Virus record (IMG/VR): IMGVR_UViG_3300018416_000097
Coordinates: 1-26,530 of that record
Strand: one strand, 5' to 3'
Length of the DNA stretch: 26,530 nt
Source of the DNA: a virus
The notes beneath the pieces are model-generated. The model saw only the letters and a list, made by a program, of their open reading frames with translations. It did not search any database and was not told the origin of the DNA. The stretch's first letter is position 1, and the number at the start of each line of letters is the position of its first letter. Shown one piece after another: positions 13,350-22,085 of the stretch. The translations under genes and the position numbers were made by a program.

Positions 13350-13952
13350 ATGTATATTTATATAGTTTACAAGACAACAAATCTAATCAGTGGCAGATTC
13401 TATATCGGACGCCACAAAGTTCATAAAGACAACATAGAAGACGGATATTTAGGCTCCGGCATTGCTATACGAGATGCTATCAAAAGCTACGGCAAAGAGA
13501 ATTTTATCCGAGAAACCCTATACCAATTTGACTGCGAAGAAGATGCAGTTAGCAAAGAAGCTGAGATAGTACATGAGGGTGTAATGAATGACCCTCGTTG
13601 CTACAATCTATGTACCGGCGGCAATGGTGGCAGGAAGCATAGCAAAGAAGCTAGAGCAAAGATATCAGCGGCCCAACTCGGCCACAAAAGAACAGGCAAT
13701 TTTAAAGGTTTTAGAGATTGCACACACACCGAAGAGACAAAAAGAAAAATCTCGGAAAACAAGAAGAAATACTATCAATCCGAGGAAGGAAAGAAAGCCA
13801 AAGATGCGCTTAGGTACAAGCGTACTCCGGAAATGAGAAAGAAAATGAGTGAAATTAAGAAAAATATAAGTGACGAGACAAGGCGTAAAATGAGCGAAGC
13901 TGGTAAAGCAAGGTGTGCGAGAGAAAAAGCCGAACGATTAAGTTCGGCTTGA
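13350..13952 (+). CDS. GIY-YIG homing endonuclease with NUMOD3-type DNA-binding motifs
   Basis: The 200-residue protein starts MYIYIVYKTTNLISGRFYIG, with the paired tyrosine and FYIG pattern of the GIY-YIG catalytic domain; RHKV contributes the expected Arg, and a Glu lies in the AEIVHEGV region (about residue 73). Residues from about 95 contain repeats of the type HSKEARAKIS, HTEETKRKIS and RTPEMRKKMS, typical NUMOD3 DNA-binding units of T4 Seg-like and intron endonucleases. AAGGAG precedes the ATG. It is transcribed against its neighbours from its own late-type promoter and is probably a free-standing mobile gene. Its 3' end carries the terminator for the convergent gene. Confidence 0.9.
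   Translation: MYIYIVYKTTNLISGRFYIGRHKVHKDNIEDGYLGSGIAIRDAIKSYGKENFIRETLYQFDCEEDAVSKEAEIVHEGVMNDPRCYNLCTGGNGGRKHSKEARAKISAAQLGHKRTGNFKGFRDCTHTEETKRKISENKKKYYQSEEGKKAKDALRYKRTPEMRKKMSEIKKNISDETRRKMSEAGKARCAREKAERLSSA
13922..13950 (-). terminator. Rho-independent terminator for the 13970-14509 gene
   Basis: On the minus strand AAGCCGAAC pairs with GTTCGGCTT around a six-base loop (13927-13950), followed by a run of T bases (to about 13924). It lies 20 bases after the stop of the convergent nuclease-like gene and inside the last codons of the plus-strand GIY-YIG gene. Confidence 0.75.
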
Positions 13953-13969: not shown

Positions 13970-14509
13970 TTATTTTCCGGTCACATTTAGCCGGGGATAC
14001 ATACCGACATTCCACTTTATGGTTTGAAGGTAATCTTGTTCTAATGCTTTGTGTATTTTAGAACCAATTTGTTTAGGTGTTCCGATTATGTTTACTTCTT
14101 TGATTATGATTGGACACTTTTTGGCCCAGATAGAAACTTTATCGTCTCGGACGCTATCTTCTAACTCTTTTCGTATTCTGAAATCAGTATCTGATTCGGT
14201 AGTTCCGAATCCACGTAGTCGTCCCATCCTACATTTGGTGTTAATTATAGGCTGTACTTCTTCGTATTGGTCGGATTCCCTGATCGGTTCTATCCCTAGG
14301 ACATTACCTGTTTCACCTATCTTTACTATCTCATCCCCGTCTACAATTGCGTACACCCAGCTAGTATGGTTAGAATACATTAAGATTTCATTTATATCTT
14401 CATACATCCATCGATGGTCGTAGTACTCCCAGTCGTCTTGCACATCAGCTAACTTTTTGAAGCCATCATCGATATATGATGCGATATCTAATACTTTTGG
14501 AATTTTCAT
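13970..14509 (-). CDS. GIY-YIG-related protein (T5orf172/Mug113-like)
   Basis: The start is taken at the ATG at 14509, which has AGGA six bases upstream and follows the promoter; a GTG further upstream overlaps the -10 element. Near residue 55 the protein has SWVYAIVDGDEIVKIGETG, the VY...VKIGxT pattern of T5orf172-type GIY-YIG domains. Downstream are several Arg (RMGRLRGF, FRIRKELE) and later Glu and Asn residues that fit the domain. The role is probably DNA cleavage, in homing, in host DNA attack or as a stand-alone nuclease; which one is not clear. It has its own early-type promoter, unlike the neighbouring homing gene. Confidence 0.65.
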   Translation of the reverse strand: MKIPKVLDIASYIDDGFKKLADVQDDWEYYDHRWMYEDINEILMYSNHTSWVYAIVDGDEIVKIGETGNVLGIEPIRESDQYEEVQPIINTKCRMGRLRGFGTTESDTDFRIRKELEDSVRDDKVSIWAKKCPIIIKEVNIIGTPKQIGSKIHKALEQDYLQTIKWNVGMYPRLNVTGK

Positions 14510-14536
14510 AATTATCCTAGTTAAGTTAAAAATAGT

Positions 14537-14564
14537 AGTATACACAAATTAGCATACCTGTCAA
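14537..14564 (-). promoter_or_regulatory. Sigma70-type promoter TTGACA-N16-TATACT
   Basis: TTGACA (14559-14564) and TATACT (14537-14542) with a 16-base spacer lie 28 bases before the ATG at 14509. Confidence 0.75.
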
Positions 14565-14567
14565 CCT

Positions 14568-15017
14568 TTATTCTGATGCCTTTTTACTAAACTGCCAATC
14601 TTTGTTGATATGCGTTTTAATATGATGGCATGTATGACATAGAGTTTGACAGTTTTCGGGGCTATTGTTATCGTGATTCCCGTCCTTATGGTCCACTGAT
14701 AGTAGCTTATTTTGACAACGCTTCATATCATTTTCATTTTCGAAGTCATCGACCTCAAATCGTTCTGTGTCTTTATACGGGTTATATCCGCATTTCTCGC
14801 ACTGGTCTTTCTTATGGTAAGTATACTTACGATTAGCATACGCATTACCGCCGTGTTCGTTTAATTGACGTTGGTGCTCTCTGCACAGAGTTTTATTACC
14901 GGGGCCATAGCAAGTGGTTAGAGGGCTATCACAGCCCTCTACCTCGCATATAATTCCTTTCTCTTTTGCAATTAACCAAACTGGTTTAGCCTTTAAGCTA
15001 TTCGGATCCTTGATCAT
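14568..15017 (-). CDS. HNH endonuclease
   Basis: The protein has about 149 residues. The C-terminal region LSVDHKDGNHDNNSPENCQTLCHTCHHIK is a clear HNH (beta-beta-alpha-metal) nuclease motif: His in VDH, Asn in NSPENC, and CxxCH. Two upstream Cys pairs (ICEVEGCDSP... and CEKCGYN) suggest additional zinc binding. I used the ATG at 15017 because it overlaps the ParB-like gene's stop (ATGA); a TTG at 15023 is also in frame. It is co-transcribed with the ParB-like gene. It could be a homing endonuclease or part of a two-gene nuclease system with the upstream gene. Confidence 0.85.
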   Translation of the reverse strand: MIKDPNSLKAKPVWLIAKEKGIICEVEGCDSPLTTCYGPGNKTLCREHQRQLNEHGGNAYANRKYTYHKKDQCEKCGYNPYKDTERFEVDDFENENDMKRCQNKLLSVDHKDGNHDNNSPENCQTLCHTCHHIKTHINKDWQFSKKASE

Positions 15018-16204
15018 TTCCAAAGATCCTTAGCCAGTACAGTAAAGCCGTTGTTCGGCGAGTACGATGGTGTCTTTAGCTTAGTACTTTTATTGAGTTG
15101 AGCAATAAGAAAAGGTAAGCCAGTGCGCATTTCTGTAGTAAATCCCTTCAGCCCGTGCTCCTGGTAGCTTTCCGGATTAGCATGTTCATACCAACGGGTA
15201 TAAGATAATTTAACCTTGCTCCAAAATCTACCGTTCTCGCTAAAGTCGCCTTCGAAATATTTCTTGGTGAACTGTGCAAATTCGTTGATATACGCACTAT
15301 CGACTTTAATCTTTTGTTCGTGGCACAGATTAAAGTACTCGTACAATTGCCTTGCTTCCTTTGCATTTACAGCACGGTTTTGTCCAAGTTCTGTCCAGTA
15401 GTCTGCAAACATTCTTGTTACTGCAACAGGCTTTGCTTTCGTAAGATCTTTGGTCATAATGGTGTCAGATAACAAAGAAAATGCACCCGGGCGATCGCTA
15501 TCGCCGTATTTTTTATTAGTAGCAAACAAGCCTGCTTTTTCAAAAAGCTTCTGTTTTTCGTTTGCGTCTTTCCATGTTTTTTCTGTTGCTCCGTCGACAC
15601 GTACACCAAAAACCATTTGCTTAAAGATATCGATAAACTCTAACGGAGTTTTTGCATCGCCGTTAAGCATAATAAAGTTCCGCCTAATTTCTAGTCTAGA
15701 GTTTGTAGGGTAGACATTTACTGGGATCTCTATATCTTCCGGAAGTTCTCCGTACACTATTGTGGCAATAATGTATAATGCGATTGCAGTATGTTGCCCA
15801 TCCCATGCTATGTATTTTCCGGGTTTTGAAGGGTCTTCGTATACCTGAATAGGCATAACCATAGTAGCTTGAAACTCATCAACAATCCTGCGCACAATAT
15901 CCATGTCGAGCGGGCGCTGAAGTGTGGTGTCGATCATTACTTGGTTTAGTTTTGCTGGGATTGCACTACACAGGGTTATATCAGAGAACCCCTTCCACAT
16001 TTTATTACGGCTACTGAAATTACTTACTGCGTCATTAAGTATGCTCTGCGTCCCTAGCAGATTAAGAGTCTGCACCAATCTTGATTGCAACGTAACAAAA
16101 TTGCTGGCAATCGTGTCAAATTGGTCGTTTATTTGTTTTGCATATGAAGTGGTTGAAACAATGGTGTGACCAGGTGCCACACGTTTAGCGTTAGATTTTG
16201 TCAT
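15014..16204 (-). CDS. ParB-like domain protein
   Basis: The 396-residue protein begins at the ATG at 16204 (GAGGAGATA ribosome binding site); an in-frame GTG at 16294 lies in the -10 element and cannot be used. In the first half IQVYEDPSKPGKYIAWDGQHTAIALY matches the ParB/Srx-type core, in which the DGQH segment binds nucleotide. A long helical, basic and aromatic C-terminal part follows. Phage proteins with this core include plasmid/phage segregation factors, DGQHR-type DNA-modification proteins and nucleases; the sequence does not distinguish these. It has a consensus early promoter and overlaps the HNH gene downstream by 4 bases. Confidence 0.7.
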   Translation of the reverse strand: MTKSNAKRVAPGHTIVSTTSYAKQINDQFDTIASNFVTLQSRLVQTLNLLGTQSILNDAVSNFSSRNKMWKGFSDITLCSAIPAKLNQVMIDTTLQRPLDMDIVRRIVDEFQATMVMPIQVYEDPSKPGKYIAWDGQHTAIALYIIATIVYGELPEDIEIPVNVYPTNSRLEIRRNFIMLNGDAKTPLEFIDIFKQMVFGVRVDGATEKTWKDANEKQKLFEKAGLFATNKKYGDSDRPGAFSLLSDTIMTKDLTKAKPVAVTRMFADYWTELGQNRAVNAKEARQLYEYFNLCHEQKIKVDSAYINEFAQFTKKYFEGDFSENGRFWSKVKLSYTRWYEHANPESYQEHGLKGFTTEMRTGLPFLIAQLNKSTKLKTPSYSPNNGFTVLAKDLWK

Positions 16205-17296: not shown

Positions 17297-17578
17297 ATGA
17301 TCCAAGTACCCTTCTTAGAATTCCATGTTTCCCATGCTTGTAACTTCTCATGCGACGGGTGTTCTCACTTTAGCAATTATAAACATGCCGAATTAGCAAG
17401 TCCAAAAGATTTACGTAGACAACATGCGCTATGGAACACGCGCATATTTCCAGAACGTATGATTCTGCTTGGTGGCGAACCTTTACTAAACAAAAAGATA
17501 TATAGGATACTAATTGACACAAGGAGAGCGTGGCCAGCTAACCGCTTATTTGCTATATCTATTCCGTTCATATCTTAA
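17297..17578 (+). pseudogene. Truncated radical SAM protein (N-terminal part)
   Basis: The 93-residue reading frame starts MIQVPFLEFHVSHACNFSCDGCSHFSN and contains the radical SAM CxxxCxxC cluster motif (Cys15, Cys19, Cys22) and the SAM-contacting GGE motif (LLGGEPLL, about 58-65). Radical SAM enzymes need about 200-300 residues or more; the frame stops soon after the second strand-helix pair, where a convergent operon begins. The final residues (RLFAISIPFIS) do not look like the continuation of the fold. I see no matching continuation in the other frames. It may be a decayed remnant or, less likely, a short iron-sulfur protein. It has no clear ribosome binding site or promoter. Confidence 0.7.
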
Positions 17579-18139: not shown

Positions 18140-18454
18140 TTACCAACCCTCTGCGGCGGCCCGCTCTTCGTATGTTTTGGGATATAAAAGATCCTCCGAC
18201 GGAAGATGCTTTTGTGTTTCTGCGTCAAAATAGTTTCCGTGGGAATGCCAAACCTCATCGCCAACTTGTCCCATTGATGTTGTCGAAATGTGGTGGGCCT
18301 TAACCTTATCGCCAGCTTTCAGTTTACTGTCCTCAGGTTTGTTGATAACGTTAGCACGTGGCCATTCCGAACTGTACAGCATTTTGATAGGACGAAATAG
18401 ATTGCCGCCTGCTTTGCAGTAAATACCATGCTTGTCTTCACGAATTAGTGTCAT
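18140..18454 (-). CDS. Hypothetical protein (104 aa)
   Basis: No family is recognised. The centre (LKAGDKVKAHHISTTSMGQVGDEVWHSHGNYFD) is rich in His and beta-strand residues; the end is helical (KTYEERAAAEGW). The ATG overlaps the glycosylase stop codon (ATGA), so the two are translationally coupled; a partner role is possible but not shown. Confidence 0.7.
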   Translation of the reverse strand: MTLIREDKHGIYCKAGGNLFRPIKMLYSSEWPRANVINKPEDSKLKAGDKVKAHHISTTSMGQVGDEVWHSHGNYFDAETQKHLPSEDLLYPKTYEERAAAEGW

Positions 18455-19269
18455 GCGTATGAACCCTCACCTTCGCCAGCTACAAATTTAACGTGACCAC
18501 AAGTACGTCTAAATCTGTATCCTTTACAGCTACAGGAAATTGTATTCTTTACAGTTACCGTATAAGGCGTATCACTACTGCCTGCAATAACGTTATAACG
18601 CCCAGGAGCAACTTTTCCAGCCACAGTAGATTTACTGACTGTAAACGTTTTCTTCCCGGACTTTGCGGTTTCGTTTATCTTCGGGCAATCCTTAGAAAAA
18701 GGACACGAGTTACATGCGGGATTCTTTGCACAATATTCTTTGCCAAAGTCAACAAAGGCACGTGAAAGGTTGGCCCACTGTTCCGGCTTAACTTCGCCCA
18801 TAACCAAGTTGGTAATAGTTTCGTCAGATGCCTTAGGCGGAACTATTCCCATTCTAACTGCAATGCGTCTAACGTGCAAATCAACTGCAAAATGATTTTG
18901 TCCGTATACCCGGTTTAAAATGATTTTAGCATTGTGTTCACCGATTCCTTTAAACTTAGTGAGACCCTTAAGTGTAGATGGTACCGGGTTGTTATTGAGA
19001 TACTCTAGCATCACTGCAATATTCTTTGCTTTGGTAGGAGCGAAGCGCAGGCTGTTAGCTTCGAGAACTTTCAGTATTCTTTTCTCGGTAGGATTTGCTA
19101 ACTCGCCAATTCCAATTGCGGCCTGTACTGCATTCTCGTCGAGGCTTGCGGCTACGGCCATGTTAGCAATAACAACACGACGAGCATGTTCGGTGGTTCC
19201 CTTTCGGGTTCCAAAGGAACGTGCCTCGAGACGATACTTTTTATTTAATTGGGTTAAAAAATTGCTCAC
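18451..19269 (-). CDS. HhH-GPD DNA glycosylase (endonuclease III-like) fused to a SWIM zinc finger
   Basis: The 272-residue protein has the helix-hairpin-helix FKGIGEHNAKIIL (106-118) and the family Asp in FAVDLHVRR (Asp130), then an iron-sulfur loop C-X5-C-X2-C-X5-C (Cys180, 186, 189, 195). At the position of E. coli endonuclease III Lys120 it has His112, so the lyase reaction by lysine is unlikely; it may be a simple glycosylase. Residues about 207-260 add a small beta domain ending ISCSCKGYRFRRTCGHVKF, a SWIM-type zinc finger (Cys246, Cys248, Cys257, His259), unusual in this family. The GTG start has GGAG upstream and an early promoter. It would remove damaged or modified bases; the substrate is unknown. 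Confidence 0.88.
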   Translation of the reverse strand: MSNFLTQLNKKYRLEARSFGTRKGTTEHARRVVIANMAVAASLDENAVQAAIGIGELANPTEKRILKVLEANSLRFAPTKAKNIAVMLEYLNNNPVPSTLKGLTKFKGIGEHNAKIILNRVYGQNHFAVDLHVRRIAVRMGIVPPKASDETITNLVMGEVKPEQWANLSRAFVDFGKEYCAKNPACNSCPFSKDCPKINETAKSGKKTFTVSKSTVAGKVAPGRYNVIAGSSDTPYTVTVKNTISCSCKGYRFRRTCGHVKFVAGEGEGSYA

Positions 19270-19304
19270 GTTTTGGCTCCATTTGTTAACTTTCTATATA
19301 TACT

Positions 19305-19332
19305 ATTATACAGCAATATTGGGCAAAGTCAA
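19305..19332 (-). promoter_or_regulatory. Sigma70-type promoter TTGACT-N16-TATAAT
   Basis: TTGACT (19327-19332) and TATAAT (19305-19310), 16-base spacer, 36 bases before the glycosylase start. Confidence 0.8.
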
Positions 19333-19391: not shown

Positions 19392-20120
19392 TCACCGCTT
19401 TCCGTCATATTTTTGTATGTTCTCAAGCCAAGGAAGCATCTGCAAGTTCTCTTTATCTGAAATTTCCTCTACTGGTATCTGCCTCTCAAATCCTTCCCTC
19501 ACAGTAACAATATGGTCCAGATGGTACGCTCCGTCTACGCCCGCCTTTCCCCTAGGAAAATCGTTAGGGTTGATTTCTTCTTTAAACTGCTGATAAGTGC
19601 GTTCAGTTCGTACAGCTACACGGTTTCTATATTTTTTGAAGTCACGGTAAATAGGATCATCACGATCTAATATCTCCATATGTTCTTCTTTACGTCTACC
19701 TTTATTCCAAGGAATCTGTCCGGTCTTTTTACCTTTGTTCCACGGTATTTTTTTATTCTTTGCCCAGTGGTTTCTGTTCCCTTCGGCTATTTTGTGTCCG
19801 TAATCTGCAAAATTTCTTCGGCCTTCTGCGTATGCCTTCTTTAGTGCCTCGGATTTTTTGCGTTTTGTTTCTTCGGTATCTTTATTACCTAAATTTGCAA
19901 TAGCATTAGCTTTACCGATTTTAGCTTTTGTTTCTTCTGAAAGGACACCACCATAATTCCAATGAGATTCTGGACCTTTATAGTTTTCTTTAGCAGTTTT
20001 TTTTGCTTTTTCTTTTATTACAGGACACGCTACTGGTGTTTTGCTACATAGCCATTTTTTAGGTGTAGGGGCGTAATAGGTAGCTTCTAGTCCGCATCCT
20101 CGTTCGCATAGTTGAGTCAT
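19392..20120 (-). CDS. HNH-type homing endonuclease with NUMOD3 motifs
   Basis: The 242-residue protein has a Cys-containing N-terminal unit (CERGCGLEATYY...WLCSKTPVACP) and NUMOD3-like repeats (LSEETKAKIGKAN, DTEETKRKKSEA; IPWNKGKKTGQIPWNKG), which bind DNA in phage homing enzymes. At the C-terminus YHLDHIVTVREGFERQIP...ENLQMLPWLENIQK gives an HNH-like catalytic motif (His/Asp-His, then Asn). It sits between gp44 and the glycosylase operon with its own late-type promoter (20140-20147). It is probably a free-standing homing gene beside the clamp-loader gene. The target is not identifiable. Confidence 0.85.
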   Translation of the reverse strand: MTQLCERGCGLEATYYAPTPKKWLCSKTPVACPVIKEKAKKTAKENYKGPESHWNYGGVLSEETKAKIGKANAIANLGNKDTEETKRKKSEALKKAYAEGRRNFADYGHKIAEGNRNHWAKNKKIPWNKGKKTGQIPWNKGRRKEEHMEILDRDDPIYRDFKKYRNRVAVRTERTYQQFKEEINPNDFPRGKAGVDGAYHLDHIVTVREGFERQIPVEEISDKENLQMLPWLENIQKYDGKR

Positions 20121-20157: not shown

Positions 20158-21084
20158 CTAATCTTGCGCCAGACAGCAGAGCTCAATAATACAGGCCGCA
20201 AGGTTTATCTCAGGGTCCGAAACTAGGGCTTGTTTTGCCATGCCATTTCGTATAATAACTACTGCTTGATCTTGCTGGGTCTCACTGCTACCCCACAGGT
20301 CTAAATTGCGATACATAAACTTGTAAATCTCATCGTACTCTTCGGGTCTAGCTTGCGCACAAATTAATGTTCTAGCATCTTTGTATTTTCCTTCCTTGAA
20401 TAACTCAACAGCACTAAGCATCCAGTCACTTGTGCTTTCATCGCCTACTTGTGGTTTTTGTAGTTTGTTGCCTACAACGTTTTGCTGTACTAAGTTAATA
20501 CATTTCCTCAAGTCCGGATAAGATGCTTGTACATAAGTATCTAGTGTTTCTAAGTCTACGTCGACACCCTCAGTTATACAAATAGTAGCAAGCCTAGCAG
20601 TAAACTCAGTAATGTCTAGTTTCTCAATGTGGAATCCTTGGCATCTGCTGTGTAGCGCAGGAATAATCTTTTGCGGATAGTTACAAGTTAAGATGAAGCG
20701 ACAATGTGTGGCAAACCTTTCCATAACACCACGTAGAGCCGCTTGTGCGTTAGGGGATAAGTAGTCTGCTTCGTCTAGCAATACGTAACGCATATCGCCA
20801 AAACCCATAGTAGACGCAAAGTTTGTAATTCTGTCTCTCACATCATCTACGCTGTTTGTAGAGGAGCCGTTCATCTCTAGGATGTCCATGTCGTTTACTT
20901 CTAACTCGTTTAGCAATACTTTAGCCAACGTAGTTTTTCCAGTACCGGGTGCTCCGCTAAAAAGCAGATGAGGCATTGCGCCTGAGGTTACCCAACCTGT
21001 TACTTGTTCTTTTTGTGAATTGTCTCTGAATACATAATCAGCTACAGTAGAGGGGCGATATTCCTCCGTCCAAAGTTTGTGCAT
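20158..21084 (-). CDS. 44: Clamp-loader ATPase, T4 gp44-like
   Basis: The 308-residue AAA+ protein has Walker A SGAPGTGKTT (43-52), Walker B LLDEAD (102-107), sensor 1 FILTCNY (130-136) and the SRC motif (146-148) that supplies the arginine finger in clamp loaders. Length and order match T4 gp44 (319). With the gp62 subunit it loads the sliding clamp onto primed DNA for the gp43 polymerase. In T4 the neighbours are 45, 62 and regA; none of these is recognisable beside it here. It has its own consensus early promoter. The start is the only ATG giving the conserved N-terminus (LWTEEYRPST). Confidence 0.95.
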   Translation of the reverse strand: MHKLWTEEYRPSTVADYVFRDNSQKEQVTGWVTSGAMPHLLFSGAPGTGKTTLAKVLLNELEVNDMDILEMNGSSTNSVDDVRDRITNFASTMGFGDMRYVLLDEADYLSPNAQAALRGVMERFATHCRFILTCNYPQKIIPALHSRCQGFHIEKLDITEFTARLATICITEGVDVDLETLDTYVQASYPDLRKCINLVQQNVVGNKLQKPQVGDESTSDWMLSAVELFKEGKYKDARTLICAQARPEEYDEIYKFMYRNLDLWGSSETQQDQAVVIIRNGMAKQALVSDPEINLAACIIELCCLAQD

Positions 21085-21377: not shown

Positions 21378-22085
21378 CTAATTACCTTTAGTGATGATTA
21401 AACCTTTTTGATTATGTCCAAGTATATGATCTTTTATTTTTACTTCTGCATTAAATCCGTTAGCCTGTAACTCACTAACTAACCAATCTAAATTATAAAC
21501 AGCAACGAATAGTATCATGTCTTCCCGCGGAATAACAGAGGTACAAACTTCGCTGTGGTCTATTAAATATTTAAAACGTTCTATGTTATTAAACTCTGCT
21601 AAATTCGCAGACTTACCAAACTCTTGCACTCGCTTTCTTAAAAACCAACCTACACCGGAATAATCTACCACTGTAGTGACGCACTTTCCGCCGGGCTTTA
21701 ATACTCTAACTTGCTCGCTTACATCAAACAACATTTGTTCGTATGTAGTGTGGCTGTGTACGCTATAAGCAAACACGTAATCGAAAGTATTAGCCTCAAA
21801 TGGGTAACGTAGTTGTTCTTCACCTAATTTATTATATACTTGACTATACGCATTGTAGTGTATCCAATTAGCTTCAGGGAATTTAGTTCTTCCGTCGGCT
21901 AACGCATCAGCATCTACATCTATACATGTATAGTTTTTTATTTTGAAATTAGGATCTTTTTCTACTAAGTCATGAAGTAAGTTTCCGCTATTCCCGCCCA
22001 CATCTAGTATTTTCGTGTCTGCGGGAATATCACCGATTTGGGTAGAAAAGAACGAGAGTCGTTCCATCCTGGGAAATTTGTACAC
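21378..22085 (-). CDS. Class I SAM-dependent methyltransferase
   Basis: This 235-residue protein has motif I KILDVGGNSGNL (about 25-36), an acidic motif II ending in YTCIDVDADAL, and motif IV-type VFAYSVHSHTTYEQML followed by VLKPGGKCVT, the typical Rossmann-fold methyltransferase pattern. No DNA methylase motif (DPPY/NPPY) is seen, so the substrate is probably a small molecule, protein or RNA. The GTG at 22085 follows the upstream stop by one base; an ATG at 22067 is an alternative. It lies after the GroES-like gene. Confidence 0.85.
   Translation of the reverse strand: MYKFPRMERLSFFSTQIGDIPADTKILDVGGNSGNLLHDLVEKDPNFKIKNYTCIDVDADALADGRTKFPEANWIHYNAYSQVYNKLGEEQLRYPFEANTFDYVFAYSVHSHTTYEQMLFDVSEQVRVLKPGGKCVTTVVDYSGVGWFLRKRVQEFGKSANLAEFNNIERFKYLIDHSEVCTSVIPREDMILFVAVYNLDWLVSELQANGFNAEVKIKDHILGHNQKGLIITKGN

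Follow-up and report, generated by a model that had tools for sequence, protein, structure and literature searches.

A jumbo phage endonuclease III-like protein with histidine at the catalytic lysine position and a fused SWIM module

A 26.5-kb stretch of viral DNA (26,530 nt, here called the window) encodes a new and rare variant of the HhH-GPD glycosylases, one that carries a phage SWIM module. We put at roughly 50 % the probability that this protein is a phage DNA glycosylase derived from an endonuclease III-like ancestor, acting hydrolytically via Asp130 rather than via a lysine Schiff base and positioned by its SWIM module. Only one full-length relative was found (L015:7974-8801, on a 293-kb contig), which shares 43 % identity with the window protein. 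No description of an HhH-GPD/SWIM fusion was found in a literature search, and the word SWIM is absent from a review (PMC9266487) that covers the non-catalytic domains of glycosylases.

The fusion gene and its source phage

The window includes genes for a head maturation protease, a T4 gp44-type clamp loader, PhoH, virion proteins and a ClpA-like ATPase, together with Rz-like spanin-type ORFs. The clamp loader shares 57 % identity with that of Pseudomonas phage PA5oct (Arenbergviridae), and the ClpA proteins of the two share 46 %. The next nearest phages are Atu_ph07 and Phosso, and the nearest environmental relative is a 340-kb contig (L100) with a clamp loader 75 % identical to that of the window. 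Based on these sequence matches, the window comes from a jumbo myophage allied to PA5oct and Atu_ph07 and is a fragment of its genome. The features of the gene and its surroundings are as follows.

18451..19269, minus strand: HhH-GPD and SWIM fusion gene, 272 aa, GTG start (start matches L015)
19277..19280, minus strand: ribosome-binding site GGAG, from the sequence, 7 nt before the GTG
19305..19332, minus strand: sigma70-like promoter TTGACT-16-TATAAT, 11/12, 35 nt upstream of the start codon
19392..20120, minus strand: NUMOD3/HNH-like ORF, directly upstream of the glycosylase gene, within the variable clamp loader-phoH interval
18140..18454, minus strand: 104-aa ORF of no known family, with a 4-nt overlap with the end of the glycosylase gene
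20158..21084, minus strand: clamp-loader large subunit (gp44-like), a phage-clade marker
3261, 7184, 10711, 14564, 16313, 19332, 21143 and 23464, minus strand: first bases of sigma70-like sites

The GTG start is supported by the ATG found at the equivalent position in L015, and by the position of the ribosome-binding site and the promoter-like site ahead of it. Eight sigma70-like sites scoring at least 11/12 are present in the window, against 0.8 expected, and all are on the minus strand and have 16-nt spacers. They match TTGACA-16-TATAAT at 11 or 12 of 12 positions, lie mostly directly ahead of gene starts, and are probably the phage's own promoter set.

Directly beside the fusion gene are an HNH-like ORF and small ORFs that belong to no known family. 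HNH/homing-endonuclease-like ORFs number five per 26 kb (2004-2750, +; 13350-13952, +; 13970-14545, −; 14568-15023, −; 19392-20120, −). A methyltransferase ORF beside the clamp loader (21378-22085, −) has a weak PADLOC match to mad2 and no match among the relatives compared, and a truncated radical-SAM ORF of 93 aa (17297-17578, +; CNFSCDGC) adjoins phoH.

In the window the fusion gene lies between the clamp loader and phoH, an interval that is variable and holds other genes or none in L100, L105, L133, L134 and L141. In L015 it is located about 50 kb from the clamp loader. The L015 contig has the same clamp-loader type and a ClpA 42 % identical to that of the window, which places it in the same broad clade. 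It also includes a phage ORF (3555-3944, +) with a domain resembling the C-terminal domain of ribosomal L7/L12 (6.2e-6).

Fold and family placement

An AlphaFold2 model of the window protein, built from a 21-row alignment, has a mean pLDDT of 83.7, with values >90 across most of the glycosylase core and much lower values in the linker that follows.

18616..18663, minus strand: low-confidence linker, residues 203-218, pLDDT under 50

The model matches Bst endonuclease III (1orn) with a Z score of 21.0 (2.5 Å over 192 residues, 22 % identity), and its matches to MutY and MIG are clearly lower (Z about 15.6-15.8). Using phmmer, the protein matched Bst Nth at 5.1e-12, and these similarities exceed chance. 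The endonuclease III-like glycosylase fold of the original prediction is thus supported by the predicted structure, and the window protein has what defines the HhH-GPD superfamily, namely the fold, a GxG hairpin and then the catalytic Asp. Within the superfamily, the NCBIfam nth model (TIGR01083) matches it at 1.7e-16, with 60.5 bits (105.7 for L015) against an equivalog cut-off of 211.7, and the MutY model with 50.0 bits against a cut-off of 286.5. The Pfam HhH-GPD score is 22.5 bits, just under the curated cut-off of 26.2, and L015 scores 48.1.

Foldseek also returned very weak matches (E 1.1 to 3.6) to the helical domains of phage 5-hmdU kinases and to a Pplase1, as might be seen if the protein, instead of being a glycosylase, were a base-modifying enzyme with an HhH-derived fold in the manner of the phage aGPT-pyrophosphorylases. 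However, Nth is far closer, and the window protein has no Pfam match to the aGPT-pyrophosphorylase/hmdU kinase helical domain families, and we regard such a base-modifying enzyme as highly improbable.

The active site is altered at several positions

The active-site and iron-sulfur features were located by alignment with Nth, and the hairpin also in the model.

18916..18960, minus strand: helix-hairpin-helix, residues 104-118, TKFKGIGEHNAKIIL
18934..18936, minus strand: codon of His112, at the position of the Nth Schiff-base lysine Lys120
18880..18882, minus strand: codon of Asp130, equivalent to the catalytic Asp138 of Nth
19132..19161, minus strand: Nth wedge-loop position (LSAQ-TD), residues 37-46, with Gln41 replaced by Ala41 (Gly in L015)
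18685..18732, minus strand: iron-sulfur loop C180-X5-C186-X2-C189-X5-C195

Over residues 1-204, the protein resembles endonuclease III (Nth; E. coli 2abk, G. stearothermophilus 1orn) in its fold, HhH hairpin, Asp spacing, VDxH and iron-sulfur cysteines, but differs in having His for Lys120, Ala or Gly for Gln41, Leu for the Thr of VDTH, a first iron-sulfur spacing of X5 and the C-terminal SWIM module. The hairpins align without gaps (FKGIGEHNAK against LPGVGRKTAN in E. coli Nth), and H112 and D130 are 18 residues apart, as are K120 and D138 of E. coli Nth. Hence, histidine at the catalytic lysine position, the retained key Asp and the four iron-sulfur cysteines all stand as originally predicted, though the first cysteine spacing is C-X5-C instead of C-X6-C. 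The loss of the wedge Gln41 and the change of VDTH to VDLH had been overlooked.

The window and L015 proteins were aligned with viral and cellular homologues (122 rows, many of them near-duplicates). The Lys120 position is occupied by Lys in 119 rows, by Tyr in one MutY-like row and by His in the two fusion proteins only. The wedge position is Gln in 104 rows and Arg in nine, and again only the fusion proteins have Ala or Gly, so that they alone are altered at both positions. Directly after the catalytic Asp, 114 rows have Thr and two have Leu; each fusion protein reads VDLH in place of the VDTH of Nth. The Asp and all four iron-sulfur Cys are present in 122/122 rows; together with the His of VDxH and an Arg, they make up a near-universal set found also in both fusion proteins.

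The window protein and L015 thus have in common the His, the lost wedge Gln41, VDLH, the shortened iron-sulfur loop and the SWIM module, and both preserve the HhH GxG and D130 at 43 % identity. Several active-site positions changed jointly and then stayed changed, and the shared changes, with the SWIM module, are conserved derived features and not noise. As the sole close relative, another giant phage, carries them too, the changes look selected rather than accidental, with conservation resting on two sequences, too few for a fine test.

In the monofunctional HhH-GPD enzymes MutY, MIG and MBD4, the HhH lysine is also replaced and the Asp kept, and MutY and MIG share the iron-sulfur loop. They differ from the fusion proteins in having Ser (MutY) or Tyr (MIG/MBD4) where the window protein has His112, and in the absence of a SWIM module, MutY having a C-terminal domain of its own. 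The group formed by MpgII, MagIII, Mja-UDG and Sis-HhH-GPD likewise lacks the Lys but has Glu in its place, and Sis-HhH-GPD also lacks the Asp (PMC11754123). The classes published for this position have Lys, Trp (AlkA), Tyr (MIG), Ser (MutY) or Glu, but not His (PMC11754123).

With lysine and wedge glutamine lost together, the protein could also be a non-catalytic lesion- or structure-binding protein, in which the fold is kept for DNA bending or scanning, base release is lost and the SWIM module recruits repair or recombination partners. SWIM proteins of the ZSWIM7/Shu2 type act in recombination complexes. There is also a precedent in DrEndoIII3, which has the Nth fold and high affinity for damaged DNA but no detected activity (PMC9268735). 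However, a pure binder would need neither the catalytic Asp nor its VDxH context, and both are kept in both members, leaving this explanation rather unlikely.

The SWIM module is a common phage domain

The C-terminal part of the protein is a short, predicted zinc-finger module.

18481..18609, minus strand: SWIM module, residues 221-263, ligands C246, C248, C257 and H259 (motif, model)

The ligands (C246-x-C248-x8-C257-x-H259) are invariant across 29 aligned modules, and the model has two strands ahead of the ligands, then a predicted helix (258-263). The fused C-terminal SWIM finger was therefore correctly recognized at the outset, and the fusion is common to L015. The Pfam SWIM family (PF04434) scores 17.7 in the window protein, just under the cut-off of 19.6, and several relatives are above the cut-off. 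The phage modules agree with PF04434 in the CxCx8CxH motif and in strands followed by a helix, but are a short form with a GSKGxxYxV lead-in and, here, fused to a glycosylase. The isolated SWIM model had no PDB match at E under 0.001, a result that tells little at 60 residues.

A module of about 45 aa with the pattern GSKGxxYxVxx...SCxCxGFxFRxxCxH is present in 156 viral stretches and its position, in 80 of these, is nearly always the C-terminus of a protein of roughly 60-150 aa. The SWIM match was unfused in 40/40 such whole records searched, one of which also has a Lys-type Nth elsewhere. The proteins that carry unfused modules in environmental jumbo phages are mostly small and unannotated. 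Such mini-SWIMs, at the C-termini of small unannotated proteins of many environmental jumbo phages (L184-L263), constitute a widespread phage domain. L015 has a second SWIM gene, which begins 63 nt behind the fusion gene and follows a perfect sigma70 consensus. The two fused modules share 53 % identity with each other versus 29-45 % with the remaining modules, and this closer relationship suits a single fusion event.

Distribution and phylogeny

The single protein recovered nothing in a viral scan, an alignment-based scan found L015, and a focused scan found L015 alone again. When all IMG/VR contigs were scanned with a His-codon pattern, L015 was the sole genuine HhH-GPD recovered, and the same pattern with a Lys codon gave 20 stretches, mostly true HhH-GPDs; because only genes with canonical spacing and with Ala at one position fit the pattern, it undercounts. 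No further copies of the fusion were detected in 50 related records searched, many of them fragments, and PA5oct, Phosso, Atu_ph07 and SCTP-2 are without the fusion and without any HhH-GPD match. PA5oct gp201 (L005:3299-3634), though annotated 'Endonuclease III-like protein', is 111 aa with no HhH-GPD match, and the annotation is likely wrong.

The phage-record matches inspected included no isolated phage with an HhH-GPD/SWIM fusion. They are Lys-type nth or mutY-like genes and look like bacterial chromosome in 'phage' assemblies. The sole match in a genome-contig scan was the Nth of a Blastocatellia MAG, and in 297 genomes of the phylum of that MAG neither His at this position nor a SWIM motif was seen in the best 30 loci. 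As judged from these sequence searches, the fusion gene is a rare accessory gene.

Among the 122 rows, His is confined to two proteins, and in the tree these form one clade (100/100 support). The very long stem of the clade (4.74) counts against any firm choice of its parent or its place within HhH-GPD. A long branch and sporadic presence within the phage clade might also be expected if the gene were a captured nth in decay. However, the frame is intact, a promoter-like site and a ribosome-binding site are present, and L015, which differs at 57 % of positions, has identical derived features, so that decay is scarcely credible.

Proposed function

The reading we prefer remains that of a hydrolytic phage glycosylase. 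The retained Asp, hairpin and iron-sulfur domain point to base flipping and hydrolysis of the glycosidic bond, and the loss of Lys would remove the usual Schiff base. We infer that the enzyme is catalytically active, that bases would be removed by attack of water assisted by Asp130 and not through a Schiff base on lysine, AP lyase activity being weak or absent, and that the SWIM module binds zinc. This C-terminal module, the likely targeting part, would position the enzyme on DNA or on a partner protein.

Most likely the protein would repair or edit the genome of the phage itself, and a host AP endonuclease would finish the work at abasic sites. The host would have to process these sites, as the 293-kb L015 record has no match to an Xth- or Nfo-type AP endonuclease. 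A search of seven jumbo records gave no Xth-type enzyme and, for AP_endonuc_2, sub-threshold matches only, none of them in the L015 record. A 5'-3' exonuclease gene (PF02739, 5.4e-21) about 2.6 kb upstream of the fusion gene in L015 is compatible with a repair role but is not proof of one.

Among the points against this preferred explanation is the lost wedge Gln, which in Nth stabilizes the flipped-out state, and its loss could mean weak or no catalysis. The genes around the fusion gene give no hint of a substrate either. In the Deinococcus enzymes, the wedge residue and the neighbours of the Asp have been proposed to be important for base flipping and backbone contact (PMC9268735).

By analogy with the known monofunctional HhH enzymes in which the Lys is replaced (MutY, MIG and AlkA; PMC8307549, PMC11754123), a monofunctional enzyme is plausible. 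This is only an expectation because a Lys-less enzyme with lyase activity exists: Sis-HhH-GPD has Glu at the Lys position, yet is bifunctional (PMC11754123). DrEndoIII1 acts mostly as a monofunctional enzyme, even though Asp and Lys are given as the active site of endonuclease III (PMC9268735). Following Sis-HhH-GPD, the fusion protein could be a bifunctional glycosylase/lyase in which a different amine (another Lys or the N-terminus) or Glu-like chemistry does the work of Lys120. However, K115, the Lys next to the motif, is Ser in L015 and the alignment shows no evident conserved substitute near the active site, and we consider this very unlikely. It is also unlikely that the conserved His has itself taken over a catalytic or covalent role from the Schiff-base Lys, with the SWIM module steering the enzyme to a phage-specific substrate (a modified base or a replication intermediate), which would make it a new HhH-GPD class.

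The original prediction had further suggested targeting of modified host DNA. More broadly, the targets of such a glycosylase may be modified bases, either those of host or competitor DNA, which it would attack, or those of the phage itself, which it would remove. Conflicts over modified phage DNA do involve glycosylases (Brig1, PMC11078745; Brig3, PMC13160076), and a related jumbo phage pairs an MBD4-like HhH glycosylase with an adjoining QueE-like gene. However, Brig1 and Brig3, though likewise glycosylases in phage-host conflict, are bacteria-encoded members of the UDG superfamily and not HhH enzymes (PMC11078745, PMC13160076), whereas the window model matches the HhH fold. In addition, no base-modification gene was recognized directly beside the fusion gene in the window or in L015, the window protein has no defence match in PADLOC, and most SWIM modules of these phages are in small unannotated proteins. 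Targeting of modified host DNA thus found no support, and a role in attack on or removal of modified bases appears distinctly unlikely.

In the related 316-kb jumbo phage (L300), the MBD4-like glycosylase gene (1363-1842, +; GIGKYGSDSY, with Tyr at the Lys position) overlaps the start of the QueE-like radical-SAM gene (1836-2750, +), an arrangement that suggests a link with 7-deazaguanine DNA. T4 DenV (endonuclease V) is also a phage-encoded glycosylase, but of unrelated fold; it acts in pyrimidine-dimer repair and is present in some jumbo phages (PMC7824862).

Significance

The residue at the Lys position is a main marker of mechanism in HhH glycosylases, and the conserved His class, fused to a SWIM module, provides a small testable protein with which to probe the requirement at that position. 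The fusion also shows jumbo phages attaching a SWIM module of their own to a DNA-repair fold.
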